This document shows positions 1 through 19,282 of a DNA stretch of 25,280 nucleotides, one piece after another. Below the pieces are notes generated by a model, which had not been told where the DNA came from, ran no database searches, and saw only the letters and a program-made list of their open reading frames with translations. Location: positions 1 to 25,280 of the IMG/VR virus record IMGVR_UViG_3300047557_004013, one strand, 5' to 3'. The translations under genes and the position numbers were made by a program. Each line of letters begins with the position of its first letter. Within the stretch, counting starts at the first letter, position 1. The stretch is from a virus.

Positions 1-441
1 CTTTTCATTCAGTTCTTTAATTTTTTCTTCATAATATTTTTTGGTACTCTCATGATTTTCACGCTCTTTAATCAACTCTTTTCTGAAAATTTCAGAATTT
101 GCTAATTGAGATTTTAATGTTTCAGATTCAACTTTATATTTTGTCAACAAAGCTACCTGAGATTTTAAATCATTCAATTCACTATTTGAACTGTTCAATT
201 GTGTGCTTAAAGATTTGATATTTTCACTTTCATTTTTTTCATTTTTTTCTCTTAATTCATTCAAAGCTTTTGATAATTCATCATTTGCGGACTTGAATTC
301 TAAAATTTTTTCATTTAATTGTTCTATCAATTCATCTTTTATTTTACCATTAGCTTGCATAGAAACATTTCTTACAATGCAATCTGTCATTGTTGCAGTT
401 AATATTTCTACATAATGCTGCGTATATTTTTCCTGACTCAT
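1..441 (-). CDS. coiled-coil protein, C-terminus cut by window edge
   Basis: An open frame of 147 codons runs from an ATG at 441 to the window edge with no stop, so the C-terminus is missing. The protein begins MSQEKYTQHYVEILTATMTD. After about residue 45 it becomes a charged, Leu/Ile/Lys/Glu-rich helix with heptad-like spacing (for example DELIEQLNEKILEFKSANDE and later KELIKERENHESTKKYYEEK), so a long coiled coil is expected. There is no signal peptide, membrane segment or enzyme motif. A good ribosome binding site (AAAGGG, 448-453) precedes the ATG, and a late-promoter-like AGTAAATA lies at 467-474. It follows the fibre genes, so a structural or fibre-assembly role is possible, but that rests on position only. 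I do not recognise the family. Confidence 0.75.
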   Translation of the reverse strand, partial: MSQEKYTQHYVEILTATMTDCIVRNVSMQANGKIKDELIEQLNEKILEFKSANDELSKALNELREKNEKNESENIKSLSTQLNSSNSELNDLKSQVALLTKYKVESETLKSQLANSEIFRKELIKERENHESTKKYYEEKIKELNEK

Positions 442-466: not shown

Positions 467-474
467 TATTTACT
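467..474 (-). promoter_or_regulatory. candidate T4-type late promoter -10 (AGTAAATA)
   Basis: On the minus strand this reads AGTAAATA, one mismatch from the NATAAATA late element of T4-like cyanophages (TATAAATA in T4). It overlaps the stop codon of the upstream fibre gene and lies 25 bases before the ATG of the coiled-coil gene. That spacing is close to the 27-28 bases seen at the three better sites in this window. Because of the mismatch it is the weakest of this spacing class. Confidence 0.35.
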
Positions 475-2735
475 TAAAAAGTTCCTCCATCAAGTGCATA
501 AGAATAACGAACTTCTTTTGTGCTTGAATTATAGAACATTAGACCATCATAGGTGGCATCTTGAGTTGCTGTGTATCGAACTGGATTGATAAACAAACCA
601 GAAGTGAGAGAACTCAAATCGTTGCCGGAAGCATTCAAAATAATGCTGTTGGCTGCTGCTCTTTCGAAACCGGCTTTACGACCGATAACGATTGCATCAG
701 TACCGATTGCAGTAGTGTTTGCTGCACCTGCTAGATGGCCAATTGCAACAGAATAACCACCTGCGGCTGAACCGGCAGAATAACCCAATGCAATCGCATC
801 TGTTCCTTGTCCAGAACCAGCAGAATTACCAATTGCAACACCATTATATCCTTGGCTTGAAAGACCAGCATTCAAACCGATTGCAATAGCTGCTACTGAT
901 TGATTAACATTACCTGCACCATAACCGATTGCAACACCATAAGTTCCTTGTGTGTTATAACCAGCAGAATCACCGATTGCAACAGCTTGGCCACCTTGGC
1001 TTAATGTACCAGCATTTTGGCCGAATGCAATTGCATCACCAACGGTGTCTTTGATTATTGCACCGTTTTGTAACTGAAAACCTGCGCCGTTTGAACTTAA
1101 TAATCCATCAGTTCCAGAAATACTTAAAAAATAGATACCATTAGCAATTGATGAAGGTGTCAATGCATTGTCTGAAGCATAGGACAACTCACCTGTTGTA
1201 GCATTAAAATAAACAAGGTTTGATGTTGCACCTTGGCTGAGACCTGTCAGATAAGTTTGCTTACTGATTTCAAATTTGTTTGGTGTGAAATAAGCAACAT
1301 CGGTATTGTCGGCATAAAAGTGTACATTGCCATCAGCATTGCTGAACATACCAGAATCATAACCACCTTCGGTGCCACTAAAAGAGTATCCACCAGTAGT
1401 TCCTGCACCTTGAGCAGCTATAATTTTGCCAGCTAACTCTAATATGCCATCATCTCTGAAGGTCCAAACATGAGCATTGTTTGCACGAATGTATACTTGT
1501 TTTGCAGAATCACTTACATTAACATTAGTTTCTTCGCCACCCAAATATAGTTCGGCAGAAGAAGCATCAATTGTGCCGCCTGCTCGTACATGAATGTGGT
1601 TAGGTACGGTTGGATCTAAAATAATATATTGATCGTTAACACCAGGACCATAGTTAGTGCTTGGTGCCAGAATTAATGTATTATTTGATGTATCACCGTA
1701 AATACGATTGGCAACATAAAGTGTTGCAATATTACCTGTATTTGCTGTTAAGTTTGCATGTAATGTCGCTAAACGGAAACTTGCATCAGCCGGATTGATT
1801 GTGTTGGCAGCTGGTTCTTGATCATAATTATCAAAGACATAGAACTGTTTATCGCCAGCATGTCTGTAAACACCAGCATGTCTGTTTGTGCCATCATTAT
1901 AATGACCATAGAAGCCAATATCAACTATGTCCGTTGTATTATTTCTTGCTAGTGCAATCAATGAATCTTCAACCGATAGTGAGGAAACATTAATAGTTGT
2001 TGTATTTCCTAAAACAATTAAGTTACCAGAAATCTCAACATCACCATCAATTAATTGATATTGAATTGCTGTATTTGAACGAACAACTGTATCATCAACA
2101 TCAATTAAAACAGTGTTGTTTGCGTCAACAGCAATAGTAGAAAGACCTGATCTTCCGGCAATTGTTAGTGTGTCTGTTAATAAACTTAAATTGGCAGTTC
2201 CTGTGTCAGCAGCAAATGCAAGTGTAGTTGCAACAGAAACATTGGCAGCAGAAGTTAAACGGCCTTTAGAGTCAACAGTAAAAACTGGAATCTCTGTTTG
2301 TCCACCATATGTGCCAGCAGCTACGCCGGTTGTCTTTAGATTACCTTGTAGAACAACATTGCCAGTTCCATCAAAAGAAACTGTAGAAGAATCAACATCA
2401 TCGCCGTTGATACTGAAATCTCTGGCTGTTTGTAATTTGGTTGCACTGTTGGCATTACCTTCGATAGTACCAATAATATTGGCGCTAATGTAATTAAAAC
2501 TTGCATTACCTGACGCATCACGGCGAACTAATGTACTTCCTGTGGCAGCGTCTGTGGCATTATCAATTTGTGATGTATAATGATAACCACCAATATTAAT
2601 TACACCAGTTCCACTAGGCGAACCAATGAAAATTGTATTGGAAAGATATGAATATGCAAGTTCACCAGCAGCTAATAATACTGGTTGACTGTTAGCGACT
2701 GAGCGTTTGATTAAGATTGAGGTATTAGCTGCCAT
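474..2735 (-). CDS. tail fibre / adhesin with Mtd-like N-terminus and YadA-like head repeats
   Basis: A 753-residue virion structural protein, probably a trimeric host-recognition fibre. Residues 1-50 resemble the N-terminal domain found in many phage receptor-binding proteins (an I-x-x-x-R-S start, then AGELAYSYLSNTIFIGS). Residues 230-330 hold a block typical of T4-like cyanophage structural proteins (SVEDSLIALARNNTTDIVDI, then the NDGTNRHAGVYRHAGDKQFY region). Residues about 570-690 are a run of AIG-x-x-AG units (VAIGDSAG, VAIGYGAG, AIGLNAG, VAIGNSAG, IALGYSAG, VAIGHLAG), the pattern of YadA/Hia trimeric adhesin head repeats. The protein ends YALDGGTF, an ending shared with the small protein encoded just upstream. 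The ATG at 2735 has an AAAGGAT ribosome binding site and a late-promoter element 28 bases upstream. Fibre assignment is confident; the receptor is unknown. Confidence 0.8.
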   Translation of the reverse strand: MAANTSILIKRSVANSQPVLLAAGELAYSYLSNTIFIGSPSGTGVINIGGYHYTSQIDNATDAATGSTLVRRDASGNASFNYISANIIGTIEGNANSATKLQTARDFSINGDDVDSSTVSFDGTGNVVLQGNLKTTGVAAGTYGGQTEIPVFTVDSKGRLTSAANVSVATTLAFAADTGTANLSLLTDTLTIAGRSGLSTIAVDANNTVLIDVDDTVVRSNTAIQYQLIDGDVEISGNLIVLGNTTTINVSSLSVEDSLIALARNNTTDIVDIGFYGHYNDGTNRHAGVYRHAGDKQFYVFDNYDQEPAANTINPADASFRLATLHANLTANTGNIATLYVANRIYGDTSNNTLILAPSTNYGPGVNDQYIILDPTVPNHIHVRAGGTIDASSAELYLGGEETNVNVSDSAKQVYIRANNAHVWTFRDDGILELAGKIIAAQGAGTTGGYSFSGTEGGYDSGMFSNADGNVHFYADNTDVAYFTPNKFEISKQTYLTGLSQGATSNLVYFNATTGELSYASDNALTPSSIANGIYFLSISGTDGLLSSNGAGFQLQNGAIIKDTVGDAIAFGQNAGTLSQGGQAVAIGDSAGYNTQGTYGVAIGYGAGNVNQSVAAIAIGLNAGLSSQGYNGVAIGNSAGSGQGTDAIALGYSAGSAAGGYSVAIGHLAGAANTTAIGTDAIVIGRKAGFERAAANSIILNASGNDLSSLTSGLFINPVRYTATQDATYDGLMFYNSSTKEVRYSYALDGGTF
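690..1040 (-). repeat. degenerate repeats encoding AIG-x-x-AG head units
   Basis: Within the 753-residue fibre gene, a degenerate unit encoding (V/I)AIG-x-x-AG recurs about eight times. The plus strand shows recurring caattgc / accgattgcaa segments. The spacing is irregular (mostly about 14-17 codons), unlike an exact tandem array. The unit matches trimeric autotransporter head repeats, which form a left-handed beta-roll. Confidence 0.6.
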
Positions 2736-2763: not shown

Positions 2764-2771
2764 TATTTATT
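2764..2771 (-). promoter_or_regulatory. late promoter -10 element AATAAATA
   Basis: A perfect match to NATAAATA on the minus strand, overlapping the stop codon of the 68-residue gene and ending 28 bases before the ATG of the 753-residue fibre gene. The spacing leaves room for a short leader with the AAAGGAT ribosome binding site. T4-type late promoters have only this -10 element, read by the gp55 sigma factor. Confidence 0.55.
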
Positions 2772-2976
2772 AAAATGTACCACCATCCAAAACTGATATG
2801 GTGTTGTTTATGGTGTTTGAAATGAAACTTGGGCCACCTATAGAAATGATCTGATTTGTATTGCTTCCAATAAAAAGTGTATTGGAAACAAAAGAAAAAG
2901 CCAATTCACCATCATCCAATACAGTCGGCGCCGTATTGGAATATGATCTTAAAATTTGTATGGTGGTATTGGACAT
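2770..2976 (-). CDS. small structural protein, miniature of the downstream fibre
   Basis: A 68-residue protein. Its first 45 residues align with the N-terminus of the 753-residue fibre encoded next: here TIQILRSYSNTAP, DDGELAFSFVSNTLFIGS and ISIGG; there SILIKRSVANSQP, AAGELAYSYLSNTIFIGS and INIGG. It ends VLDGGTF, against YALDGGTF in the fibre. It therefore looks like the fibre's N-terminal domain joined directly to its C-terminal tag. The ATG follows the upstream TAA with no spacing, so coupled translation is likely; a weak GCAGG lies upstream. It could be a short baseplate adaptor or cap that occupies the same attachment site, or a decaying or duplicated fibre end. The role is inferred. 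Confidence 0.7.
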   Translation of the reverse strand: MSNTTIQILRSYSNTAPTVLDDGELAFSFVSNTLFIGSNTNQIISIGGPSFISNTINNTISVLDGGTF

Positions 2977-3195
2977 TTAAAAGAAACCTGCATCCAAATT
3001 GGCCGTGGCGGTCGCTAACCTGAAATTATTATTTGCAGCATCATAAACAATGGAATCGCCAGTTTGGCCACCCACTATTGTTAAATCGGTGGCACTTTTA
3101 AGTGTTCTGGTTCCATAAGCTATGGATTGAACGGTTGTTGGTTTTCCACCAACTTGCACCTTAATTACAGATGGTTGCGATACGGTTACGTCCAT
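2977..3195 (-). CDS. small phage structural protein ending LDAGFF
   Basis: A 72-residue protein of beta-rich composition: VTVSQPSVIKVQVGG, VQSIAYGTRTLKSATDLTI, then a C-terminal SIVYDAANNNFRLATATANL. The segment FRLATATANL resembles SFRLATLHANL in the 753-residue fibre, and the ending NLDAGFF resembles LDGGTF in the two genes that follow. A GAGC ribosome binding site sits about 7 bases before the ATG, directly after the stop of the 114-residue gene. The next gene starts at the base after its stop codon. It is probably part of a fibre-base or baseplate-edge complex with its neighbours; no enzymatic motif is seen. I recognise the style from T4-like cyanophage clusters but no named family. Confidence 0.65.
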   Translation of the reverse strand: MDVTVSQPSVIKVQVGGKPTTVQSIAYGTRTLKSATDLTIVGGQTGDSIVYDAANNNFRLATATANLDAGFF

Positions 3196-3204
3196 GTTTA
3201 GCTC

Positions 3205-3549
3205 TTAAAAAACTGTAACTCTTGGAAGAACATTAACAATACCTTCCAAAACTCTCGTTACAGTATTTGCGGTGTTATTTTTTATAATCACATCATATAC
3301 ATAACGTCCAGCTGCAATATTTGCGGTATTGGAAGAAGAAAGACCTAAAATCAATTCTCCATCGGTTGGATTATTGATTGTGATTGTAAATTGAGCTGTT
3401 GCATTAGTGGAATAATATGATTTTCTTATTTGGCTTTTGCCGGTGTAACCAGTCAAATCATATGGTGTTCCATCCACATCATCTAGTGTGATTGTGGTAT
3501 TATAATCTGCACCTTGTTCTATGAAAAGTTCTTGATATCCTGCTGCCAT
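3205..3549 (-). CDS. small beta-sandwich structural protein (BppU-N / fibre-base-like)
   Basis: A 114-residue protein reading FIEQGADYNTTITLDDVDG, then YDLTGYTGKSQIRKSYYS, a mid segment on DGELILGLSSSNTANI, then AGRYVYDVIIKN and a final LEGIVNVLPRVTVF. This order (dG-x-x-yDLTGyt, then aGrYvYDv, then leG-x-v-V-x-P-x-vT) is typical of small phage baseplate or fibre-associated beta-sandwich proteins, including the N-terminal part of BppU-type upper baseplate proteins. The ATG at 3549 has GGA 6 bases upstream and a late-promoter element 27 bases upstream, so it may head the transcript carrying the small structural genes and the 753-residue fibre. The domain resemblance is from memory of the pattern, not from a search. 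Confidence 0.65.
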   Translation of the reverse strand: MAAGYQELFIEQGADYNTTITLDDVDGTPYDLTGYTGKSQIRKSYYSTNATAQFTITINNPTDGELILGLSSSNTANIAAGRYVYDVIIKNNTANTVTRVLEGIVNVLPRVTVF

Positions 3550-3576: not shown

Positions 3577-3584
3577 TATTTATT
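3577..3584 (-). promoter_or_regulatory. late promoter -10 element AATAAATA
   Basis: The minus strand reads GTAAATAAATATTTAAATAA across 3568-3587, with the AATAAATA element at 3577-3584. It overlaps the stop codon of the 905-residue fibre gene and lies 27 bases before the ATG of the 114-residue gene. Motif and spacing match the sites at 2764 and 6326. Confidence 0.55.
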
Positions 3585-6297
3585 TACCATTGTTTTGCTT
3601 CAATTCATCAACTTCAGATTTTAATTCTTTGATGGCTTGAAAAGCAAGGACACAAAGTTTTTCATAATCTACAGCTAAAGTTCCGTCAGCTCTTTGTCTT
3701 ACAGCTAATGGGAAAACTTTTAATACATCTTGAGCGATAACACCAAAATCATTTTTTCTAACAAAATAACCATCTTCACCACCTCTGTTGGCAAGATATT
3801 CGTCTGTCCAGTCGAACATTTTACCACCAATGAATTGCACAATAGATAGTGCATTTTCAATATCAGAAATATTTTCTTTATGTTTCTTATCGGACGAATA
3901 AAACGCTGTAATATTTTCTGTAGCTCTAATTTCACCTGCGGTACCAGAAGCTGCAGTGCCAACACCTAAAGAATTGACTTGTGCGTTTGAATTTGTTGTG
4001 AAACCACCTTGTGGTCCTTGTGCACCGGCTGGTCCTGTTGCGCCTTGAACACCTTGTGGTCCCTGTGGCCCGGTAGTACCTGTGGGTCCAGTTGGACCGG
4101 TTGGTCCGGTGAGGCCTGTGGCGCCCTGAACACCTTGAGCACCTTGTGCTCCTACGGCACCTTGTGCTCCTACGGCACCTTGCACGCCTTGTGGACCTTG
4201 AGCGCCAACTGCACCCTGTACACCCTGAGGCCCTTGTGCACCAGCAGCACCTTGGACGCCTTGTGGACCTTGTGGACCAATTAAATTCGTGGATGCACCA
4301 ACCCAAACTCCGTTAGCAGCAATAACTCTGTTGGAACCCATGAACAGCCCGCCGGTTCCATTTACAGTCAAGTTACCGGTTGTTGTTAAAGCACCAGCAG
4401 TAATAATTGTAACTGTGTTTGCAAGTGCTGAATTTGCAACTGCAAAAGCTGAATTGGCATATGAACCAGCTGTTACTGCTTTGGAATCTGCTGTTGCTGC
4501 ATTAGTTGTAGCTGTGTTGGCTTGATTATAACTAGCATTAGCTTGATTGAAAGCACCATTGGCATAAATTGCTGCTGAATTTGCTACATGACTTGGTGTA
4601 TTTGCCTGTAAGAAAGCAGCATTCGCGTGATTGAAAGCTGCATTAGCTTGTGCAAAAGAACCTATTGCAAATCGATTTACAGTGTTAACAGAATTGGCTG
4701 TTGCGACGGATGTTGTGCTTGTTGAAATTACTGTGTCGTTAAAATTTTCATCTGTTAAAATTCTGTAATATGCAGGAGAATCAACATTCAACAATTGCCA
4801 ATTTTTGCTGGCTTCAGACCAACGAATTGCAGCATTTGTACCTGAAATTCCTCGGCCAACTTGCAAATAGGAATCAATACCTGTTCCGCCACCATCATTT
4901 AACCTAAATGTATTCGCAGCATAAACTGTAGAACCACTAATAACAAAGTTGCCTGATACGGTTAAACCACCAGCGCCAGCTTGAATACCAGCGAAATACG
5001 CAATTGCTGTATTACCGTCTAGTCGAGTTGCAACATTTAATGTCGGCACTGTTGCACTTACATTTGCAGTTAATGTGTTTCCAGTAATGGAATTTCCAAC
5101 TAAAGATGTGCTGGTAATGGAAGAATTTGACTGTATTGATCCAAATACACCTGCACCGGCAGCACTAATTGCACCTGTTGAAATAACATTTGGTGCTTGA
5201 ATACTATTGTTGGCGACCAGTCTGTTAACGGTTGCTGTTCCTCCCGTACTAATTGCACCTGAAGCAATTACATTAGTGGTTTGAACATCATTATTGGCCA
5301 CCAGTCTATTGACAGTTGCTGTGCCAGCTGTGCTGATAGCACCTGAAGCAATTACATTAGTGGTTTGAACATTATTATTTGATACTAATCTATCAACAAA
5401 TGCTGGACCAGCACTACTGATTGAAGCACTAGCAATTAAACTTTGTGTTGTAACTGAGGTATTAGCGGTTAAAGTTCCAGTTAAAATAGAAGTGTTGGCT
5501 TGAACTGCATTTGAAAAAACTGTTGCACCAGCACTAATTGCACCACTTGAAATTACATTAGTTGCTTGAACATCATTGTTTGCTATTAAACGATTAACTG
5601 TAGCTACACCGGCAGCACTAATTGCACCAGTAGAAATGATATTGGCAGCTGTAACCAATGTATTTGCTGTTACAGTTCCTGTTAAAATTGATGTATTGGC
5701 CTGTAATCTGTCACCAAAAACTGTGCCGGCCGCACTAATAGCACCATTTGATATTACATTGGCAGCAATAACAGAGGTGTTTGCGACAATATTATTCGCA
5801 TATACAACAGTATTGGCTTGTAAAACTCTTGTAAATGTGGTATTTGTTACACTGGCAAATGTGGTATTTACAGAGGTGTTGGCTTGTAAATTGTTGGTAA
5901 TTGTATCATTAACAATTGTGGTACTTCCACCAACAAATGCACTGTTAGAAACTCTAATACCGATACCTGATCCTTGAACCAAAACCAAACCGTCCAGGTT
6001 TGCTTGACCTGAATGTGTTAGACCAAGTGTGGTGTTTGTAAAATAAACTTGACGGCCAACAGTTAGGTTGTTTTGTATAGTGGCGGAAGAGCCAACACCT
6101 TGTACTTGCAATTGACCATAAACAATGGTATTTGCAGCTTGTAATGCCAAATTTGAATCGGTTAAGAAAAGTGTACCGACAGATTTGGTAAAATTATTTG
6201 CTGCCAAATCATTATTTTCTCTTACTAATGAATTGGTTGCCACCAACCATTGAGCAAAAGTGTTTGCGTAACTTAAAATAGGGACTGTATTGGCCAT
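3580..6297 (-). CDS. long tail fibre with collagen-like stalk and Peptidase_S74 chaperone
   Basis: A 905-residue tail fibre. The N-terminus ([20 protein letters not shown], then [14 protein letters not shown] and [11 protein letters not shown]) has the form of T4-like cyanophage fibre starts. Residues about 165-400 carry NVI-x-x-GAIS-type tandem repeats. Around 560-640 there is an Ala/Asn-rich AF-x-x-AN heptad-like stretch. Residues 673-763 are about 30 Gly-X-Y triplets ([12 protein letters not shown]), a collagen-like stalk. The last ~104 residues are a Peptidase_S74 intramolecular chaperone: SDKKHKENI, then [27 protein letters not shown] and [12 protein letters not shown]. Ser802 and Lys807 match the Ser/Lys pair used for self-cleavage, so release of the C-terminal chaperone after trimerisation is expected. 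An AGAG ribosome binding site and a late-promoter element precede the ATG. Confidence 0.9.
4005..4282 (-). repeat. collagen-like Gly-X-Y coding repeat
   Basis: About 30 consecutive Gly-X-Y codon triplets inside the 905-residue fibre gene, visibly more GC-rich than the surrounding sequence. It contains a perfect 18-base direct tandem (4141-4158 and 4159-4176, encoding GAQGAV twice), prone to length change by slippage or recombination. Gly-X-Y runs in phage fibres form trimeric collagen-like stalks. Confidence 0.85.
5080..5800 (-). repeat. 84-bp (28-residue) tandem repeats in fibre gene
   Basis: The fibre gene carries a 28-codon unit of the form [15 protein letters not shown], then about 9 variable residues and RLVAN. 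The plus-strand landmark actaattgcacc at 5164 recurs at 5248, and as gctgatagcacc at 5332, an exact 84-base period. Older, more diverged copies with an inserted ANTSILTGT segment lie at higher coordinates up to about 5800. This suggests growth of the fibre shaft by tandem duplication. Confidence 0.8.
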
Positions 6298-6523: not shown

Positions 6524-7855
6524 TTATGCTGTTGCAATTGCTCTAAAGTTTTTGATACTTGGCACAAGTGCGGGATTGGAAGAATACATCACAACTTTAA
6601 TCGCAAAAGTATTAAAGTTAGTATATAAAGTTCCTGAAGTGATATCGTTATAAGTAATATCTAGGGCTTGATATGTGTCAGTTGTCCAATCGGTTGGTCC
6701 TGTTGTTTGCAGAGAACCTCCAATTGTGAATTTAGGATTCATTAACACATATGGATTATTATCGAAGTTGTTTGCATCCTTTTGATTCAGAACTTTATAA
6801 TAAACTTCAATTGATGTTCCCGGTGGACGATTGACATCCAAATATACAGTAATACCAGTTGCTTCAAAATCATTGTTTAATGTTACTCGGCGTGTAATAT
6901 ATCTTGCAGATGCACCACCAACATTTCTTACACCACCTAATGATTCAACGGCTGTATTTGCACTATTGTATGGTGTAATATTGTTTTTAACCAAAACAGT
7001 GTTCAGTCTTTCCAAATCAATAACTGGTGATGTATAGATATCTGTGTTGGTTATGGTTGGTCGAATGATAATATCCGATGCCGCAGCCATAATTTTTCTG
7101 GTTGTTAATTGTGTGTTTTGATTATCAAGAACATTCGAAGTTGTTGATGTGGATGATGTTGCTGCGTCTTTTGTGACAACATCATATTTAACTGAACTCA
7201 ATGAGTTGAATGTTAAATCTTGTGTCAGCAATTTAATTAAATCATAATAAACGGCACTGCTATTTGGATTTGTCACTGAAGCTTCCGGTACAGTTGATGT
7301 TACATCGAAAGTTGCGGTACCACCAGCAAAAGAACAAATGTTCAATTTAAATGTTAGTGTTTCTCCTGGCACCGCCACCCAAGTAGAAGCATTTTGCGAC
7401 TTAAAAAATGAAGCAGTATAATTTAATTGATTTATAATTTTTGTAGTACCAAATTCAAAATCACCAAGCTTCGATGTATAAACAGTATAGTCACTTGAAT
7501 CTGAAGCAATAATCAATGAATATTGTCCTGGTTCCAAATAAACTGGAAAATCAAATTTAAAATTGGTTGATGGTCCAATTGATTTTGTTTGATTTTCTAC
7601 AGTTGGAACATTAACTTCATTAGGTTTTTTATAAACAATTGAACCTGGGATATCGTTTGATGTGTCTGGATATCCATTTACAGTAGGACGTATACGAACA
7701 TTTACTGGTGAAGTTGTGTCGGCCGAAGCAAAATAGAGATCAACAGAAGAAAGAAAAACACCATTTGGATATTTTCCAGCATCAACAAAAAAGTTTTGTG
7801 ACAGTGGATCTGTTCCGTTTAATGTGTTTAAATTGTCTCTTTGTATTAAACGCAT
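6524..7855 (-). CDS. virion structural protein, partner of the DUF4815 protein
   Basis: A 443-residue protein. The N-terminal half has a jelly-roll-like pattern I associate with the C-terminal part of large T4-like cyanophage structural proteins: DPLSQNFFVDAG, GVFLSSVDLYFASAD, VNVRIRPTVNGYPD, FDFPVYLEPGQYSLIIASDS, then FFKSQNASTWVAVPG. The second half (IIIRPTITNTDIYTSPVIDL, then VTLNNDFEATGITVYLDVNR and YYKVLN) also looks beta-rich. It lies 16 bases after the 1821-residue gene with an AAGGA ribosome binding site. The two were probably once, or are in relatives, one polypeptide or an obligate pair at the baseplate periphery. There are no catalytic motifs. The name is withheld because T4 itself has no obvious counterpart. 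Confidence 0.7.
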   Translation of the reverse strand: MRLIQRDNLNTLNGTDPLSQNFFVDAGKYPNGVFLSSVDLYFASADTTSPVNVRIRPTVNGYPDTSNDIPGSIVYKKPNEVNVPTVENQTKSIGPSTNFKFDFPVYLEPGQYSLIIASDSSDYTVYTSKLGDFEFGTTKIINQLNYTASFFKSQNASTWVAVPGETLTFKLNICSFAGGTATFDVTSTVPEASVTNPNSSAVYYDLIKLLTQDLTFNSLSSVKYDVVTKDAATSSTSTTSNVLDNQNTQLTTRKIMAAASDIIIRPTITNTDIYTSPVIDLERLNTVLVKNNITPYNSANTAVESLGGVRNVGGASARYITRRVTLNNDFEATGITVYLDVNRPPGTSIEVYYKVLNQKDANNFDNNPYVLMNPKFTIGGSLQTTGPTDWTTDTYQALDITYNDITSGTLYTNFNTFAIKVVMYSSNPALVPSIKNFRAIATA

Positions 7856-7871
7856 TTTATTTTATTTCCTT

Positions 7872-10800
7872 TTACACAAGAGAAGTCGAATCATTTAGTT
7901 GATCGCTTAATTTTATTCCGCCGGCACTATAACTGGTTGAACCATCAGTAAGTGTGTTCAAAGCTGAATTATTGATTTCAGTATTTAACATATTCATGGC
8001 CGTGGCTGAACCGTACACAAGAGACATGTTTGCATAATAGTCTGCTGAAGCTGCATAATCATTAAATGTTGGAACATTGCCAATGGAAGATGTTAATGTA
8101 TCATAAAGTTCTTGTACTAAAGTTGTGCCAAAATTTTGAATAACATCAGCTCCATTATCATCAATTTGAGGTATTCTGCTTAGAGTTAAAGAAGATACCA
8201 ATTCTATTATATTTAATGTTCCTGTAGCATAATCAAAAATATCTGTTGTGATTGTACCTCCGCCACTAACAAACACAGTGTTGCTTGTGTCAATCGTTGT
8301 ATTTGTTGTGGTTGTTGTATCAATTGTTGTATTTGTTGTAATAATTTCCACACCACCGACATTTGTCGTTGTGTTTGTTGTATTTGATGTGGTTGTTGTA
8401 TCTGTTGTTTCGGTTACTGTTAGTGGTGTTGCAACAGCTGGACGATAAAGTTGTTCCACTCTGAATGTTGGATAAGATCCAGTGTAACCATCAGCTAAAA
8501 ATCCCCAAGCAAAAGCCACATCAGCTTGTAATGGTGAGGAAACTGAGAATCCGAAAGATACTGAGCCGTAAGGAATAATTGTTTGGCTAGCGGGCCATAT
8601 TCTGCCATCTGGTGCTAAAGTTGGACGCTCAATTAATTGTGGTGTAACAGTAACTGATGATCCCGACAAGTTTCTGACAGTAATTGTACCAGTTGTTGCT
8701 GTTCCTACAGTTTGAATAATTGATGTTACGGGTGATCCAAAAACTTCTAAAGGAGAATCTAATCGAGCCGCAGAAGAACTTCTGGAGTTTACACCAACTT
8801 CATTGACCCAATCAGTAAATCCTGATCTAGAAATACGAATTCTTAGTGTGCCGGATGGATGTGGCGTTGTTAAGGACAATGTTGTTGATGGTGAACCTGC
8901 TGTCAATGATCCACTTACAGCATTTAATTTTGTAGAAAGGTCTGCATAATTTGTCATTGATTGTTCCACTCTCCAAGAATAAGTTCCCGGATTGTTGGCA
9001 ATAAATGTTGGACTTAAAGCAAGTATAAATTTAGTAATATTTGAACCATCATCATATGCTTCTAATGATGCTATAATTAATGGATCATATGAAGGAGTTG
9101 GACTTGGATTATTCACAACTACCGGTGTTTCGTCAATAATCGGTGCTGGCGGATCGATAGGTCTGACTGGAGTTTGTGGTTTTGGTTTGATGATAGGAGG
9201 TCTTGTGGAAACAACGGTTGTTTCTACAACTTCCAATGTACCTTGTGAGTAGAACGTTGCTCTTGCATATGATTTCGATGTTGCCGGATTCAACAAACTG
9301 TCCGACCATTCTAAACTAAGAGCTCCAGTTGGAAACTTCAAGAAACTATCATTAGGTAATGTGAGTTCACCTGATGCAAATCCATTAATATCTGTGACGA
9401 GAGGAACACCACTACCATAAGCTGTTGTATTCGAAGTCAGTATTGCTGTCGAAGTATTTGAACCAGTGACTCTGATTGTTGGTGTTGATGTGTATCCAAA
9501 TCCTGGATTTACAATTTGAACAGAAACAATTTGACCACCAGAAACATTAGCTGTCAATTGTGCTTGTACTTGGCAATCTCCAACGACAGTAATAATTGAT
9601 TGATTATTGCCATTTGTATAACCTGTTCCAGCACCCGTTATATCGACCTTGTACACACCAGTTGGTGTTGTTGGACGAACATAACGATTAACTTGATTGC
9701 CGTTAATGAATGTATTGATTTGTGTAAACGGTGCTAATCCACGCAGATTGAATTGTATCTTTTTGCTTCTAGCAACGTTTACAATTTCACTAGACAATAC
9801 TTTTTGTGTTGATGAAACTTGTATTGGACCGCCACTCACAGCTGCTTGCAACCCTCTTGAAGCAATAACATCTGCAATCGCTTGAGTATTTCTAGTTACC
9901 TGTGCTGTATCACCAGAATTTACAATCGAATCTGTTGATTGGCCAGTCCAATTTATTTGCCAATCGTTCCATTGAGAACCATTTCCAGTTTGATTGACAG
10001 CAGCAATCCAAGCTGACTGGTCTTGATTAACAATGTTAATGATCGGTTTGCTCTGTGTATCATACCAAATATCACTTCCTGGAGAAATTGATGCATCACC
10101 AATAAATGTTGCAACGTCGAAAGGATTAACTTTGACGATTTGTGATGCAACATTTTGAAATACTAAAGGTACTTCTGTATAAGAGAATGTGATAATATTG
10201 TTGCTCAAGAAAATCTTATTGTTTTCTCGACCAGTTGTTAATTTAAATGTACCTTGATTCGTATCAACTGTATAATTGGCAATTGTAGAATTGAACAATG
10301 GTCTAGCAAGTTGTTCCAACTTATCGATGGAAGCAGCATAGTCTGGATTTACTACATCAGCAACACTAGAACCTGTAAAACCATCAACTAAGAAACCGTT
10401 TTTGAACAATAAATTTTGACCAGTTGAATCTGTAACATCCATGCCACTTACTTCATTTTCTAATATTGAAAGTGAAGTGTAGTATTCTAGATTGGATATT
10501 CTCTTATCCAATAATCCAATATCTCTCATTGTGTAACGGCGTAATACCGTTGGAGTATTTACAACATCTTTAGCTGTAAATGTGTATGCTGGAATATCCA
10601 ACTTAAATAAAGTTAGTGCACCAGGTATATCGGCTGGTGGAACAGGATTCTCATATGAACTAATACCGCGAAGTGTTCTAAATTGTCCGTTTGGATACAA
10701 AACAATTTTATCTACTCTGCTCAAATAATAAGCATAATCAACATACACATCTTCAAATGGTGCAGGTATTTCAAAGTTATCAAATATTTTTGTTCCAACT

Positions 10801-13337
10801 CCATCACTTCTTCTAGGTCTGAAATCTAAACAATCTCTTAATTGTCTTGTAACGCCATATTTTTTTGATGTGAATGTTGGAATTGATGCATAATCAACTG
10901 GATACGAATTGAGTGTCATGTATCCAAGACCACCAGAATGTGTGAAATAATCAAATACAGCTACAACATTTCCTTTAGCGACACCACTTATATTTCTGAT
11001 TGTTCCATGGTCATACATATTATCTTTTTGACCATTATCAAAAACATAGTTGTTGAGACTATTTTGAAGCTGAATCCAATTTGTCAATGATGTATCTGGT
11101 GTATTGTTTAAGTTACTATTTGTTAGTGACTTATAAACTTTACCATTGTAAATAACGGATTGTGTATTTGAATAGGTATTTGATCCAGACCATGTGTTCA
11201 TAAAAGATATGGTGTTGCCTAATTCATATACACCCTTGAACTGATAAATGTCGGCATATCCAAGTTCAATCGTTTCGTTTAATGTGTTGGCCGAAACTAA
11301 AGAATACCCGTTTGTGTTTAAAACTTTGTTCTTTAATTGAGCATTTGTAGAACTAATTGTAGCAAAAATCGTAGCAGAACCACTGAAGTTCCCGCCAATA
11401 TTGATTGTTGCTTGTGGTGTGCCAGAGTTATTGATCGTGATCGTTACATTAGCCTGATCCATCGGAATGAATGTGCCAGCGGTATAATTTCCACTTGATG
11501 ATGTAACAACTACACCATAATTTTGCCTTCTTTCAGCAGAAGAAATTGAACCTGAACCACCCACAAATATTTCATCTGGACCCGAAGTATTGATTGTAAA
11601 CACACCACTTACAAATGATGGTGCACTATAATATCTTCTTGTAATATAATCAGCGTTTGTAATATTGGCCAAATTTTCTTGTGGCATAACAAACAACAAG
11701 TCATCATAAAGTTCATCATTCAACGTTGTAGGTGAAACTGTATTTGCTGAGAATGAAACTGTTGTGTAATTATTTGATCCGCCAGGAATAATCAATGAAC
11801 TAACATTGGCAAAAGCGTTGTTCGACAATGCAATTTCCGACAAGAAAACTTTATAAATGGTATTATTAGCCGTGCCACTATCATAATCAAAATTAAACAC
11901 AGCGGCTGTACCAATTATTGTGTTGGCATTTGCTGCACCATAAGAAGCCTTGTGTAATTCTACTTGAGTGCCATTCTTAAAGTTTACGAAAGAACCCCTG
12001 ATATCTCTACACTCAACATAATTACCGTAATAGGTGGAAATAAGTTGTTCACTCAGAGAAGTTGTATCTCTAGACTTTTCAATCTTATAATTTGTTGGTG
12101 CAATTCTTTCAACAGGTTTTCCATAAATGTAAGCCTTACCAGCACTGATTGAAGCAGGGAAATTGCTTTCTGATGAGAATGAATCATTGATTAATAGCTT
12201 GAAAGGATTAACAATGAAGTCTCCCGATTGGTCGTAAATACCCTGTTGAATATATTTGGAGATTTCAGAATAAACTGGCGTATTATTTAAGTTTTCAATT
12301 ACACCATTGTTAACTCTGACAAGTTCAATAAATTTTTCTGTTGTTAAATTTGAAATTGTTTGGTCGCTCACATAAGGACGAGAAACAATTGTAAAAGAAA
12401 TCTTATATCTATCTGCACCTGGTGCTTGATAGTTTGATGCTGCAATAGCTGGATCTAACAACGACGAGTCATTGAATGAGTCAATAATATTTTCATTAAC
12501 TTCGAATCCAATTATAGCAGAAGGAAAAGCATTTAATTCATCTGGTACAATTGATGATGCGTCATTTCTGACAAAGAATCCGTTTGTGAACCAAACACCT
12601 TCATCAACGCTGATTTGCATGGCACGATTTGATGCAACAGAGGTGACAGAGATGTTCTGTGAACTTAAATTGGCTATCAGATTTTTACTGATTAAAATAT
12701 TATCTGCGTCTATAATTTTAATAACAATTGCTGTTAAATTGGATTGTGATGAGATAACAATTTTATCACCAACAGAAATTCCGGAAGCAATGTTTGAACC
12801 ACTTAATTTGTTCTGCAAATATGTACCTGAAACACCAGTTTTAGTGACTGTGGTTTCGGTTAAAAGTGTTGATGTGTAAACAGGACTTACTGTGGCCTTC
12901 AATGAAGAAAGAGCATCAGTTTTAGTATTGAAAAAGTTGAGAGTTTCGCCGGATGTAAATGATTGTCCGTTACTTACATTAACTGGTTTTGTGATAATAT
13001 AAAAATTTTCAATGTTAACATCAATAACTTTTGACACAAAGCCTGAAGTTGCACCAACAACAAAAAGTCCAATATAAGACTCAATATCATCTACAGATGT
13101 GCTCAAAAGTTTACCAGTTACAACATTACTATCATATGTAATGTTTGCACCAGAAACTTTTGATCCGTCACGATAAATTCCATTACCAAATTTTGAAATT
13201 TGATCTTGGAGAATTGTTTGGCTTTGTGTTAATTCTCTAGCCTGTACAGCAAATCCAGGTTTGAATAAGATTCGATGAAAGTTTTTTGCTGCATCAAAAT
13301 CGTCATAGTAGGGGTCAACATTGAAGTTCAGAGACAT
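7872..13337 (-). CDS. very large DUF4815-type baseplate/tail structural protein
   Basis: A 1821-residue protein. Its start (NVDPYYDDFDAAKNFHRILF, then KPGFAVQARELTQSQTILQD and FGNGIYRDGS) is the signature of the DUF4815 phage structural family. Other visible parts: residues about 1225-1300 hold two G-x-GYT beta repeats; 1367-1417 are a Pro-rich linker (RPPIIKPKPQTPVRPIDPP); about 1420-1630 look like one or two beta-sandwich domains; 1631-1697 are extremely Thr-rich (TTTTTNTTIDT). The C-terminus is short and Ser/Asn-rich. Its position between gp8 and the fibres corresponds to T4 gp9-gp12, so it probably takes a peripheral baseplate role, but I see no clear homology to any of those. The ATG at 13337 has a strong AAAGGA ribosome binding site, and the gp8 gene ends 9 bases upstream. 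Confidence 0.8.
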   Translation of the reverse strand: MSLNFNVDPYYDDFDAAKNFHRILFKPGFAVQARELTQSQTILQDQISKFGNGIYRDGSKVSGANITYDSNVVTGKLLSTSVDDIESYIGLFVVGATSGFVSKVIDVNIENFYIITKPVNVSNGQSFTSGETLNFFNTKTDALSSLKATVSPVYTSTLLTETTVTKTGVSGTYLQNKLSGSNIASGISVGDKIVISSQSNLTAIVIKIIDADNILISKNLIANLSSQNISVTSVASNRAMQISVDEGVWFTNGFFVRNDASSIVPDELNAFPSAIIGFEVNENIIDSFNDSSLLDPAIAASNYQAPGADRYKISFTIVSRPYVSDQTISNLTTEKFIELVRVNNGVIENLNNTPVYSEISKYIQQGIYDQSGDFIVNPFKLLINDSFSSESNFPASISAGKAYIYGKPVERIAPTNYKIEKSRDTTSLSEQLISTYYGNYVECRDIRGSFVNFKNGTQVELHKASYGAANANTIIGTAAVFNFDYDSGTANNTIYKVFLSEIALSNNAFANVSSLIIPGGSNNYTTVSFSANTVSPTTLNDELYDDLLFVMPQENLANITNADYITRRYYSAPSFVSGVFTINTSGPDEIFVGGSGSISSAERRQNYGVVVTSSSGNYTAGTFIPMDQANVTITINNSGTPQATINIGGNFSGSATIFATISSTNAQLKNKVLNTNGYSLVSANTLNETIELGYADIYQFKGVYELGNTISFMNTWSGSNTYSNTQSVIYNGKVYKSLTNSNLNNTPDTSLTNWIQLQNSLNNYVFDNGQKDNMYDHGTIRNISGVAKGNVVAVFDYFTHSGGLGYMTLNSYPVDYASIPTFTSKKYGVTRQLRDCLDFRPRRSDGVGTKIFDNFEIPAPFEDVYVDYAYYLSRVDKIVLYPNGQFRTLRGISSYENPVPPADIPGALTLFKLDIPAYTFTAKDVVNTPTVLRRYTMRDIGLLDKRISNLEYYTSLSILENEVSGMDVTDSTGQNLLFKNGFLVDGFTGSSVADVVNPDYAASIDKLEQLARPLFNSTIANYTVDTNQGTFKLTTGRENNKIFLSNNIITFSYTEVPLVFQNVASQIVKVNPFDVATFIGDASISPGSDIWYDTQSKPIINIVNQDQSAWIAAVNQTGNGSQWNDWQINWTGQSTDSIVNSGDTAQVTRNTQAIADVIASRGLQAAVSGGPIQVSSTQKVLSSEIVNVARSKKIQFNLRGLAPFTQINTFINGNQVNRYVRPTTPTGVYKVDITGAGTGYTNGNNQSIITVVGDCQVQAQLTANVSGGQIVSVQIVNPGFGYTSTPTIRVTGSNTSTAILTSNTTAYGSGVPLVTDINGFASGELTLPNDSFLKFPTGALSLEWSDSLLNPATSKSYARATFYSQGTLEVVETTVVSTRPPIIKPKPQTPVRPIDPPAPIIDETPVVVNNPSPTPSYDPLIIASLEAYDDGSNITKFILALSPTFIANNPGTYSWRVEQSMTNYADLSTKLNAVSGSLTAGSPSTTLSLTTPHPSGTLRIRISRSGFTDWVNEVGVNSRSSSAARLDSPLEVFGSPVTSIIQTVGTATTGTITVRNLSGSSVTVTPQLIERPTLAPDGRIWPASQTIIPYGSVSFGFSVSSPLQADVAFAWGFLADGYTGSYPTFRVEQLYRPAVATPLTVTETTDTTTTSNTTNTTTNVGGVEIITTNTTIDTTTTTNTTIDTSNTVFVSGGGTITTDIFDYATGTLNIIELVSSLTLSRIPQIDDNGADVIQNFGTTLVQELYDTLTSSIGNVPTFNDYAASADYYANMSLVYGSATAMNMLNTEINNSALNTLTDGSTSYSAGGIKLSDQLNDSTSLV
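8278..8420 (-). repeat. Thr-rich low-complexity repeat in the 1821-residue gene
   Basis: The plus strand shows a 30-base period: tcaatcgttgtatttgttgt at 8290 and tcaattgttgtatttgttgt at 8320. It encodes TTNTTIDTTT-like decapeptides, with related ttgttgta blocks beyond. It is a flexible linker or a candidate slippage-prone tract inside a structural gene. Confidence 0.6.
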
Positions 13338-16450: not shown

Positions 16451-19282
16451 TTATCCTAAAAGAATGATTGATCCACCTTCTGTTGTGATTGTATTGCCTG
16501 ATTCTGTTATTAATTCTGGGAAATATTGTATTCCTTGTGGACCCAAAATCTTAATTTCCAATTGTTTAGGTACAGTTCCACCAGCTGTGAATGTTCTACT
16601 TACTGTTATCAATGAGTTTGCTGTATTCGAAAGATTTGTTTTAAGTGTAACAACTTTTGTGTCATAGTTAATCGATTGAATTTCTAATGGAGGATTGTTT
16701 GCAATCAACAATCTATCTCCAGCAAACATAATATCTCTCAAATGATTGGAAGTATTACTATACAGACCATTGTTGATCAGATCATAAGTTCCAGTTATTT
16801 CTGTAATATTTATCGTGTTTGAGTTAGCAGTTCCATTTCCACGAGCCACATTTGCATATGATAACATCGAAGTTGATGTAATTGTTATCTGATTATTTGT
16901 TGGATCAATAGAAACAATATCAGATTTAACATTTGGTCCAGTCTGACTACTTAGAATAACAATTGAATTTGCAAATATGAAATCAGCGATGTTTGTGCCG
17001 CCACCAATATTATTAAATTTAATGATGTTGCTACCAAGAGCAAATTTATTATTACCAGAATAATAATCTGCTTTCATCACCGCATTTGCTGCAGCTTCAT
17101 TGGTATAATAATATAATGTGAAGCCTGTTTGTAAGGCTTGTTCTACCGTTTTTGTGATACTTGTATTTGATTTCAACAAATAACGGCCAAAAACTTGCAT
17201 GCCAGTTGGATGCAACAAGTTCAACAAAATGTCACGATACTTTGAAATTTCTTTTTCAACAATGATTTCATATGTGTAATCATTATATTTCAAACTTTGC
17301 AATACATCATATGAACTTGGTTGACCTCTCTTATTGAGGTATTCACCTTGACTTACAACAAGACCATTCAAGAAACTAGCATTTGCTCTTGCTTTACCAT
17401 CACCATAAGTTCTGACGCCAGTTGAATCATACTTATTACTGTAAGCGGTATTCGCCATCAACAATACAATATTTTTTCCATCAACTTTAAGTGTTTTTGT
17501 TGGGTCGGGTTTGGTGTTATATTCAAAAACTCTCAAATTAAATTGAGAGAGTTGTGTATTTGCATCAGAAGTTAACAAGGTGATGTTATTTACTGTTGCT
17601 TTATAAGTTGCAGAAATTAAATCTGTTCCCTGAAAAACAATATCATTTTTCTCTGGTAACAAAGAAACACTCACATTTGTAACTACAACGTCTTGTACTT
17701 TCAACGAGACATTGGGACGGCTCACATAATCTTCACCGGCATCAAGAATATTAATTGTACTGATTGCACCAATTCTGTCCACAACTGTTTGAAATGTTGC
17801 ACCATCACCAATAATACCCGGTACAAAAAGACTTGCACCATTTGCTTGAACATTGGCTGATTGTACTGATAGTGTTGGTAAAGAAGAATTCTTATAACCT
17901 AAACCACCTGGTGGATATAAATCGGATTTGTAAACATACGATACAGCGGTAATAGTTCCATTTGCATTGACATTTGTTACATTTGCATATGCACCATAAC
18001 CACTGCCACCTGTAAATACAATTACATCATTTGCTTGATAACCTAAACCACCATTCGCAATTTGAATTGGTCCCAACATACCCAAAGTTTTCAAATCAAC
18101 AGAATCACCTTGGTCGGTTTCAACTATTGATGCTGCGCTAACGGTAGGTGTAACTTTAATGTCACCGCCACCATTCAGAAGAAGTATTGAAGAAATTGGG
18201 TAAGTGGAAAATGATTCAAATGTTAATGCATTCTGTAGAGTTGTGTTTGCATTTGCATTGGGATAAACAGGAAAATCATAATCTGCGGCACCAATAGTAA
18301 AGTTATTTTTGGATCCAATTGAATCAATTGCGATGAAAGCAAGATTCGCTCTTGTTGTTGGATCGGGATCAACAGAACCAACAATAGCGACAGCGCCGCC
18401 ACCATTTAAGATATCAATTTCTGTGTTTGGATGTTCTCTATAACCATAACCACCGGTCAAAACATTGATGTTTTGTATAGAACCAGTTGTGGTTGTTCCA
18501 ACTTGAGCTACAGCATCTTTGGCATTTGGAATATCTGGATTTAATCCATCATACACAATGACCGGATCACCAGTCTCATACAATAATCCTCTTTTGTTAG
18601 GATCAATTCTTATTTGGCTAATTTGGCCAACTAGTTTTGCACGTAAAATTTCCCCATCAATAATAACATCTTGATTATTATTGTCTACGATGCGTACAAA
18701 TTCTCCAGATTCAAATAATCTTTGAATATCTGATACAAATATTTCAGTTTTATTTCCTGACCTTATTGTATTTTCAATAGTTGCAATTGATTTTGATGTT
18801 TCACCAAAAATTCTATAGTTATCAATGGATAAGAATCGATCATCGGTTGTGGCCAATCTTAAACTTTTAGCTACATACCACAATCCTGCTGACGCTCTTA
18901 GAACAGAATCTTTTGTATAATAATAATCAAAATCCGAATTATATAGTAGTCTGAATAAAAATTTAAATGAAGGTGGTGTGCCTTTTGTTGCATACAGTTG
19001 TCTTGCCATCTTAACGGCAAGTTCTTCATTTGTTAAAGCATCTTTTGGAAAATAAGGCAAAAAATCATTAATGTAGTATTCCAAAAATTCTGAACTAGTT
19101 TTATCAATATCACGATAGTTCAGTAAATTTTTGGATCTTTCGGTAACATTACCATTTTCTTCCATCCATTCATAGTAGGCCTGCAAAAAAAGTACAAATG
19201 TACTATAGTCGGGATTATCCCGAATATATTCAGGTAACTGTGATGGAATTAATAATGATGTTTTTTGTCCGTCAGTTATCAT
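16451..19282 (-). CDS. large baseplate wedge protein at the gp7 position
   Basis: A 943-residue protein, close in size to T4 gp7 (1032), directly after gp6 and overlapping it by four bases (ATGA). The N-terminal ~130 residues are a distinctive helical block (LQAYYEWMEENG, FLEYYINDFLPYFPKDAL, ARQLYATKGTPPSFKFLFRL, LYNSDFDYYY) that I know from T4-like environmental phages. I cannot match it by eye to T4 gp7, so that name rests on synteny and length. Residues 260-520 contain at least four G-x-G-Y beta repeats (VLTGGYGYREHP, ANGGLGYQAND, PPGGLGYKNSS, LDAGEDYVSRP). The region about 620-720 (YLNKRGQPSSYDVLQSLKYN, HPTGMQVFGRYLL) resembles a conserved C-terminal core. It likely spans the wedge and contacts gp6, gp8 and the outer proteins. 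Confidence 0.65.
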   Translation of the reverse strand: MITDGQKTSLLIPSQLPEYIRDNPDYSTFVLFLQAYYEWMEENGNVTERSKNLLNYRDIDKTSSEFLEYYINDFLPYFPKDALTNEELAVKMARQLYATKGTPPSFKFLFRLLYNSDFDYYYTKDSVLRASAGLWYVAKSLRLATTDDRFLSIDNYRIFGETSKSIATIENTIRSGNKTEIFVSDIQRLFESGEFVRIVDNNNQDVIIDGEILRAKLVGQISQIRIDPNKRGLLYETGDPVIVYDGLNPDIPNAKDAVAQVGTTTTGSIQNINVLTGGYGYREHPNTEIDILNGGGAVAIVGSVDPDPTTRANLAFIAIDSIGSKNNFTIGAADYDFPVYPNANANTTLQNALTFESFSTYPISSILLLNGGGDIKVTPTVSAASIVETDQGDSVDLKTLGMLGPIQIANGGLGYQANDVIVFTGGSGYGAYANVTNVNANGTITAVSYVYKSDLYPPGGLGYKNSSLPTLSVQSANVQANGASLFVPGIIGDGATFQTVVDRIGAISTINILDAGEDYVSRPNVSLKVQDVVVTNVSVSLLPEKNDIVFQGTDLISATYKATVNNITLLTSDANTQLSQFNLRVFEYNTKPDPTKTLKVDGKNIVLLMANTAYSNKYDSTGVRTYGDGKARANASFLNGLVVSQGEYLNKRGQPSSYDVLQSLKYNDYTYEIIVEKEISKYRDILLNLLHPTGMQVFGRYLLKSNTSITKTVEQALQTGFTLYYYTNEAAANAVMKADYYSGNNKFALGSNIIKFNNIGGGTNIADFIFANSIVILSSQTGPNVKSDIVSIDPTNNQITITSTSMLSYANVARGNGTANSNTINITEITGTYDLINNGLYSNTSNHLRDIMFAGDRLLIANNPPLEIQSINYDTKVVTLKTNLSNTANSLITVSRTFTAGGTVPKQLEIKILGPQGIQYFPELITESGNTITTEGGSIILLG

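Follow-up and report, generated by a model that had tools for sequence, protein, structure and literature searches.

A conserved C-terminal tag and an Mtd_N-like domain as a proposed plug-and-socket connector of modular phage tail fibres

The window analysed here, a viral record of 25,280 bases, carries part of a T4-like tail region on its minus strand. Read along this strand, a 905-aa collagen/S74 fibre is followed by proteins of 114, 72 and 68 aa, a 753-aa fibre and the start of a coiled-coil protein. The sequence confirmed the three open reading frames and C-termini of the original prediction, namely LDAGFF for the 72-aa protein and LDGGTF for both the 68-aa protein and the 753-aa fibre. 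The features of the region are as follows, in reading order.

3580-6297, minus strand: 905-aa collagen and S74 fibre, untagged, directly upstream of the LtfC gene
3205-3549, minus strand: LtfC-like fibre-attachment protein, 114 aa, untagged (PHROG, Pfam, profile and fold matches)
2977-3195, minus strand: 72-aa adaptor, the "+1" protein by its position after LtfC in relatives, with an N-terminal VTVSQPSVIKVQV stretch, one hairpin-like repeat and a C-terminal tag
2980-2997, minus strand: tag LDAGFF of the 72-aa adaptor (sequence; ADAGFF, VDAGYF or LDAGTF in relatives)
2770-2976, minus strand: 68-aa mini-protein, the proposed coupler, with Mtd_N-like domain, short helix and tag (relatives and AlphaFold)
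2827-2976, minus strand: Mtd_N-like putative socket domain of the 68-aa mini-protein, residues 1-50 (similarity to the fibre N-terminus)
2773-2790, minus strand: tag LDGGTF of the 68-aa mini-protein (sequence and relatives)
474-2735, minus strand: 753-aa fibre with Mtd_N-like N-terminus and C-terminal tag (sequence and database matches)
2556-2735, minus strand: Mtd_N-like putative socket domain of the 753-aa fibre, residues 1-60 (sequence comparison)
477-494, minus strand: tag LDGGTF of the 753-aa fibre (sequence and tagged relatives)
1-441, minus strand: beginning of the coiled-coil protein (MSQEKYTQHYVEILTATMTDCIVRNVSMQ...), truncated by the window edge (translation; relatives end in KDGGTF or KDGGSF)

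The 905-aa fibre contains many ISAGTV/NTS-type repeats. When named phages were searched by tblastn, the 68-aa and 72-aa proteins and the 241-aa coiled-coil protein gave zero matches, and the search of named phages with the 753-aa fibre led to cyanophage fibres that share other regions and are tagless. Among the viral contigs, a relative with 55% identity to the 72-aa adaptor was found (contig L016). The motif FRLAT-x-x-ANL of the 72-aa protein also occurs in the interior of the fibre, but the adaptors of relatives have not retained it, so that it looks incidental.

The 114-aa protein belongs to the LtfC (T5 p132) family by sequence profile as well as by fold. It matches phrog_3304 ("L-shaped tail fiber protein assembly") with E=1.7e-26 and Pfam LtfC PF23926 with E=9e-5, the latter at a score under the curated cut-off, and profile matches to the solved LtfC of DT57C and T5 were obtained (8hqz_Q, E=6e-4; 7qg9_R, E=4e-3). 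In Foldseek, the best fold matches were likewise the DT57C and T5 tail-tip chains 8hqz and 7qg9, with E-values of the order of 1e-8 (3e-8 to 7e-7), and the model has the beta-sandwich fold of LtfC (TM-score by target about 0.65). In DT57C, LtfC forms a dodecameric collar ring that holds the fibres, whereby the N-terminal strands of LtfA extend the LtfC sheets (PMC10713586). LtfC-like proteins also occur in 24 Streptomyces phage records.

The 68-aa mini-protein consists of the fibre N-terminus followed directly by the tag, as the original prediction stated: within the record, residues 2-66 align to the fibre with 45% identity (E=4.7e-13). It is conserved, with 15 relatives among viral contigs, the best of which are 62-65% identical at full length. 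Its AlphaFold model (mean pLDDT 83.5) shows a small domain with values above 90, then a helix and a flexible C-terminal tag. The domain follows the pattern IQIKRS...P..L..GELAYS...LFIG...IGG and is, by sequence comparison, apparently related to Pfam Mtd_N (PF18454), the N-terminal domain of the major tropism determinant. This model was matched at E<=0.01 by 9 of 40 aligned relatives of the domain, whereas the two copies of the window, in the 68-aa protein and at the fibre N-terminus, gave no match to it in the Pfam search; one relative, a homologous fibre from contig L403, matches it above the curated cut-off. Foldseek with the domain model listed the N-termini of phage hyaluronidase and Mtd among its top matches, which were weak (E 0.2-1.7), and no PDB chain was matched by sequence.

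The consensus of the tag is [ILV]-D-G-G-T/S/x-F/Y-COOH, and a strict tag was defined as [DN][GA]G-x-[FY] with at most one more residue before the C-terminus. A search for the tag in related phages had been named beforehand as the test that could refute the original prediction, and it yielded a strong enrichment at C-termini. The tagged set is larger than the three proteins first recognised: where relatives of the 68-aa protein occur, four consecutive genes are tagged, encoding a 70-180-aa protein, the mini-protein, the fibre and the coiled-coil protein that corresponds to window positions 1-441. For an estimate free of selection for the tag, 80 loci were fetched solely via the LtfC profile, i.e., via the 114-aa gene. 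Here, tags were present at position +1 after LtfC in 55 of 77 genes, at +2 in 50 of 73, at +3 in 18 of 67, at +4 in 14 of 63 and at +5 in 8 of 52 (145 of 332 in total), whereas outside positions +1 to +5 the tag occurred in 0 of about 650 genes of these loci. A set of 19 contigs or genomes, with about 3,800 called genes between them, contained 33 strict tags, 31 of which lay within a fibre cassette; P-SSM4 has one chance match outside any such cassette. Thus, the tags are not chance occurrences. Isolates with the tag are P-SSM2, P-HM1, S-SRM01, ACG-2014f, Melnitz, Mosig, DSL-LC02, DSL-LC03 and Limnohabitans phage DC31. The final F or Y agrees among tags on unrelated proteins of one locus (FF 57, YY 24, mixed 15), which speaks for the connector proposed below but could be a lineage effect. 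In one contig (L172, 9786), a 71-aa coiled-coil protein has an internal SDGGSF followed by about 20 further residues. A second recurrent C-terminal ending, [AV][IVM]ALG (QAIALG, MSVALG, VAVALG, FAIALG), was seen on other short fibre-like genes near LtfC cassettes of SAR11 and Methylophilales T4-like phages (L146, L148, L169, L170, L054 at 19151-19366, and L217).

The tag and the Mtd_N-like domain occur together. Among the distinct complete genes fetched by the fibre N-terminal domain, 50 of 51 end in the tag. Domain-bearing genes lie directly after a tagged gene in 190 of 257 cases compared to 135 of 2368 for other genes, and when the tagged gene itself is without the domain, the next gene is domain-bearing in 120 of 153 cases. 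Since many domain-bearing genes are themselves tagged, part of this correlation stems from one and the same protein. In 33 loci fetched via the neck gene gp13, tag and domain also co-occur (10 of 12 versus 2 of 21, p=4e-5), although L201 and L203, two of these loci, carry the domain but no strict tag. Among whole contigs, those with a tag in a fibre cassette all have the domain as well, even if the two are far apart: S-SRM01 and ACG-2014f each encode a single tagged and a single domain-bearing protein, located at 119 versus 212 kb and at 81 versus 179 kb, respectively, so that about 93-98 kb separate them. Conversely, both the domain and a tagged fibre cassette are missing from HTVC008M, syn9, P-RSM6 and P-SSM4, and at the loci with a long untagged +1 fibre (L053, L066, L067, L089, L097, L130, L131 and L175) the following genes are without tag and without domain. 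Simple marine loci are organised as an adaptor with tag, a fibre with domain and tag, a last protein with domain but no tag, and then a neck gene. In the window's clade, the 68-aa mini-protein, which has both elements, and a tagged coiled-coil protein come in addition. A strict rule by which the number of tags equals the number of sockets holds in several genomes and was rejected, as it fails in the window's clade, where 4 tags face 3 detected domains because the coiled-coil protein is tagged and has no domain.

A natural fusion is found at the very joint between the two elements. In DSL-LC03, adaptor and Mtd_N-like domain form one chain (...KWVVTNEIDGQVNPTIKIKRTTSTN...), with ...NEIDG at the place of the tag; among 7,090 distinct called proteins, no other carries the domain at an internal position. 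The split versions have both as separate proteins, in P-SSM2 with the tag INGGNF (...LDINGGNF / MASIIRIKRSSG...) and in P-HM1 with the tag VNGGSF, and the fusion point of DSL-LC03 coincides with the end of the tag in such split versions, e.g., that of P-SSM2. Thus, the C-terminus of the adaptor should adjoin the domain in the assembled fibre.

From the comparison of several hundred related loci, we therefore propose that the tag and the Mtd_N-like domain constitute a plug-and-socket connector by which a fibre is built from anchor, coupler, fibre and distal part, a reading to which we assign a probability of roughly 0.6. An anchor or adaptor protein would bear the tag distally as a plug, and the following fibre part would receive this plug in its Mtd_N-like N-terminal domain, the socket. 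At the base of the chain, the LtfC ring would sit at the baseplate and the 72-aa adaptor would follow, binding LtfC by its N-terminal strands in the way of LtfA in T5-like phages. The 68-aa mini-protein would come next and act as a coupler, having a socket as well as a plug; it would be followed by the 753-aa fibre, which again has both, and finally by further parts encoded downstream; we infer this order in the virion, the physical docking and a trimeric state of the parts. A shared docking signal, as originally suggested, thus fits the data well, whereas the partner is better sought in the Mtd_N-like domain of the next part than in a chaperone. Two tags fit the connector poorly, namely that of the coiled-coil protein, which has no domain, and the distal tag of the 753-aa fibre, which has no certain partner. 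An AlphaFold monomer of a read-through fusion of LtfC with the 72-aa and 68-aa proteins, a weak test with 9 sequences and no trimer, left the tags disordered and gave no interface. Small Mtd_N-like proteins of about 100-165 aa with the variant ending D[YF]G[ST][LI] were observed elsewhere (L069 at 12180-12671, L104 at 8135-8485, L125 at 2351-2662), and this ending is possibly a second plug specificity.

It could also be that the tag acts on each protein by itself, as a folding or trimerisation cap or as a recognition signal for a fibre chaperone. The tagged proteins do look like trimeric fibre parts, and behind the tagged fibre most genomes have a coiled-coil gene (e.g., L447 at 6825-7043, L104 at 7904 and L388 at 9286), its product ending in DGGSF or DGGTF in the window's clade and in NDF, DDF or DDTF in others; this protein might serve as a chaperone of the fibre or belong to the fibre itself. 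We regard such a function as improbable though still the strongest competitor of the connector, as it leaves unexplained both the co-occurrence of tag and domain at distant genome sites and the loss of the inner tag in the fused adaptor-fibre.

Somewhat less probable is that the tag is an attachment signal to the LtfC ring, with every tagged protein docking on LtfC independently, e.g., by strand addition. This resembles our initial view of the tag as belonging to LtfC, and it would agree with the addition of LtfA N-terminal strands to the LtfC sheets in DT57C (PMC10713586) and with the gp13 loci of T4-like contigs, which are tagged in 12 of 17 LtfC-positive but 0 of 16 LtfC-negative cases (p=2e-5). 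This view was dropped after loci of podovirus-like contigs proved to be tagged without a detectable LtfC: there, the tag sits on an unrelated anchor family, again ahead of a domain-bearing fibre, so that the tag is not tied to LtfC. L414, initially counted among the tagged loci lacking LtfC, turned out to have it. The N-terminal region of this anchor begins much longer proteins or long fibre families elsewhere. Furthermore, HTVC008M is LtfC-positive yet tagless, and in P-SSM2 the LtfC lies about 73 kb away from the tagged pair; its genome (NC_006883) has two LtfC-like genes at 173643-175177, far from the adaptor-fibre pair at 100 kb.

That the mini-proteins are competitors, with the 68-aa protein occupying or plugging joints and thereby blocking or varying fibre attachment, had been part of the original prediction and is in our view rather unlikely. 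In its favour, the protein is made up of the first domain of the fibre plus a tag; for blocking alone, however, one of these two ends would be enough. Moreover, the small gene is kept at full length in the clade and lies between adaptor and fibre, and this order, together with the presence of both domain and tag, suggests a coupler rather than a blocking subunit.

Least probable by far, and largely refuted, is a nucleic-acid feature behind the shared ends, such as a recombination site, gene conversion or a Shine-Dalgarno motif located within the end of the gene. Among tags that lie <=6 nt from the next start, 38 of 45 do have GGA as their second Gly codon, compared to 28% in internal Gly-Gly. 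However, a distance of >=20 nt to the next start was found for 108 of the 174 tags, and in 97 of these 108 cases the next gene has a Shine-Dalgarno-like site of its own; moreover, same-residue codons within a locus are no more alike than codon usage predicts (Asp/Asn position, 65 identical observed and 74 expected; Phe/Tyr position, 61 and 69). This agreement at or below expectation speaks against gene conversion or a DNA site and renders the initially noted TTT TAA likeness of the three 3' ends trivial. The GGA preference close to a start implies that the tag can double as a ribosome-binding site; as the cause of the tag, such an overlap was rejected, since it accounts for the codon bias only. 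Thus, the tag is conserved as protein and not as DNA.

If the connector is generalised, a C-terminal plug and an N-terminal Mtd_N-like socket would serve T4-like phages, podovirus-like phages and the 76-kb Limnohabitans phage DC31 alike, forming multi-part fibre chains whose parts can be exchanged without redesigning their neighbours, with the 68-aa protein as a stand-alone coupler; we consider the chances for this wider version to be about even. The arrangement has counterparts in known systems. LtfC/p132 of the T5-like phages DT57C and T5 is homologous to the 114-aa protein by profile and fold, whereas in those phages the fibre is held by the N-terminal strands of LtfA, and in the window a tagged adaptor encoded by its own gene and, downstream, a fibre bearing the socket would be interposed. 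Conserved docking peptides of receptor-binding proteins are known from phages of the K1-5, K1E, SP6, KP32 and KP34 type (PMC6872550), and with these the proposed connector would share a short conserved terminal peptide that joins fibre or spike proteins. There, the peptide is N-terminal on the distal protein and docks on a T4 gp10-like domain (PMC6872550), whereas in the window it lies at the C-terminus of the proximal protein, with the distal protein contributing its N-terminal domain as the proposed socket. The tag therefore does not belong to the K1-5/KP32 type, as the conserved peptide lies at the C-terminus of the upstream protein and not at the N-terminus of the second, and a Pfam scan of six window proteins reported no gp10-like branching domain. 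The Mtd_N family description includes no C-terminal tag as part of the family. Pelagimyophages and cyanomyophages possess a hypervariable host-recognition cluster with tail fibres and major tropism determinant domains (PMC7029224), and the cassette of the window lies at the corresponding genomic position, with VrlC on one side and the neck genes on the other; the passages considered describe no shared C-terminal tag or joint. Like the mini-proteins of the window, the Tfa and Pam3 gp25 chaperones (PMC9608196) are small and encoded beside fibres, but they are separate chaperones that embrace the fibre tip, whereas the mini-proteins are reduced fibres with a tag. In the literature searched, with subscription journals outside the search, no description of the C-terminal tag was found. 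Short terminal docking peptides as such and the genomic place are already known, whereas a C-terminal tag as a modular connector was not found described.

The fibres of T4-like phages that infect cyanobacteria, SAR11 and freshwater bacteria change fast and are poorly annotated. If the proposed connector is true, a six-residue tag would mark the proteins of one fibre and their order, so that host-recognition parts could be annotated from sequence alone, and the modular joining of fibres would become a simple binding question on small proteins such as those of P-SSM2 and P-HM1.
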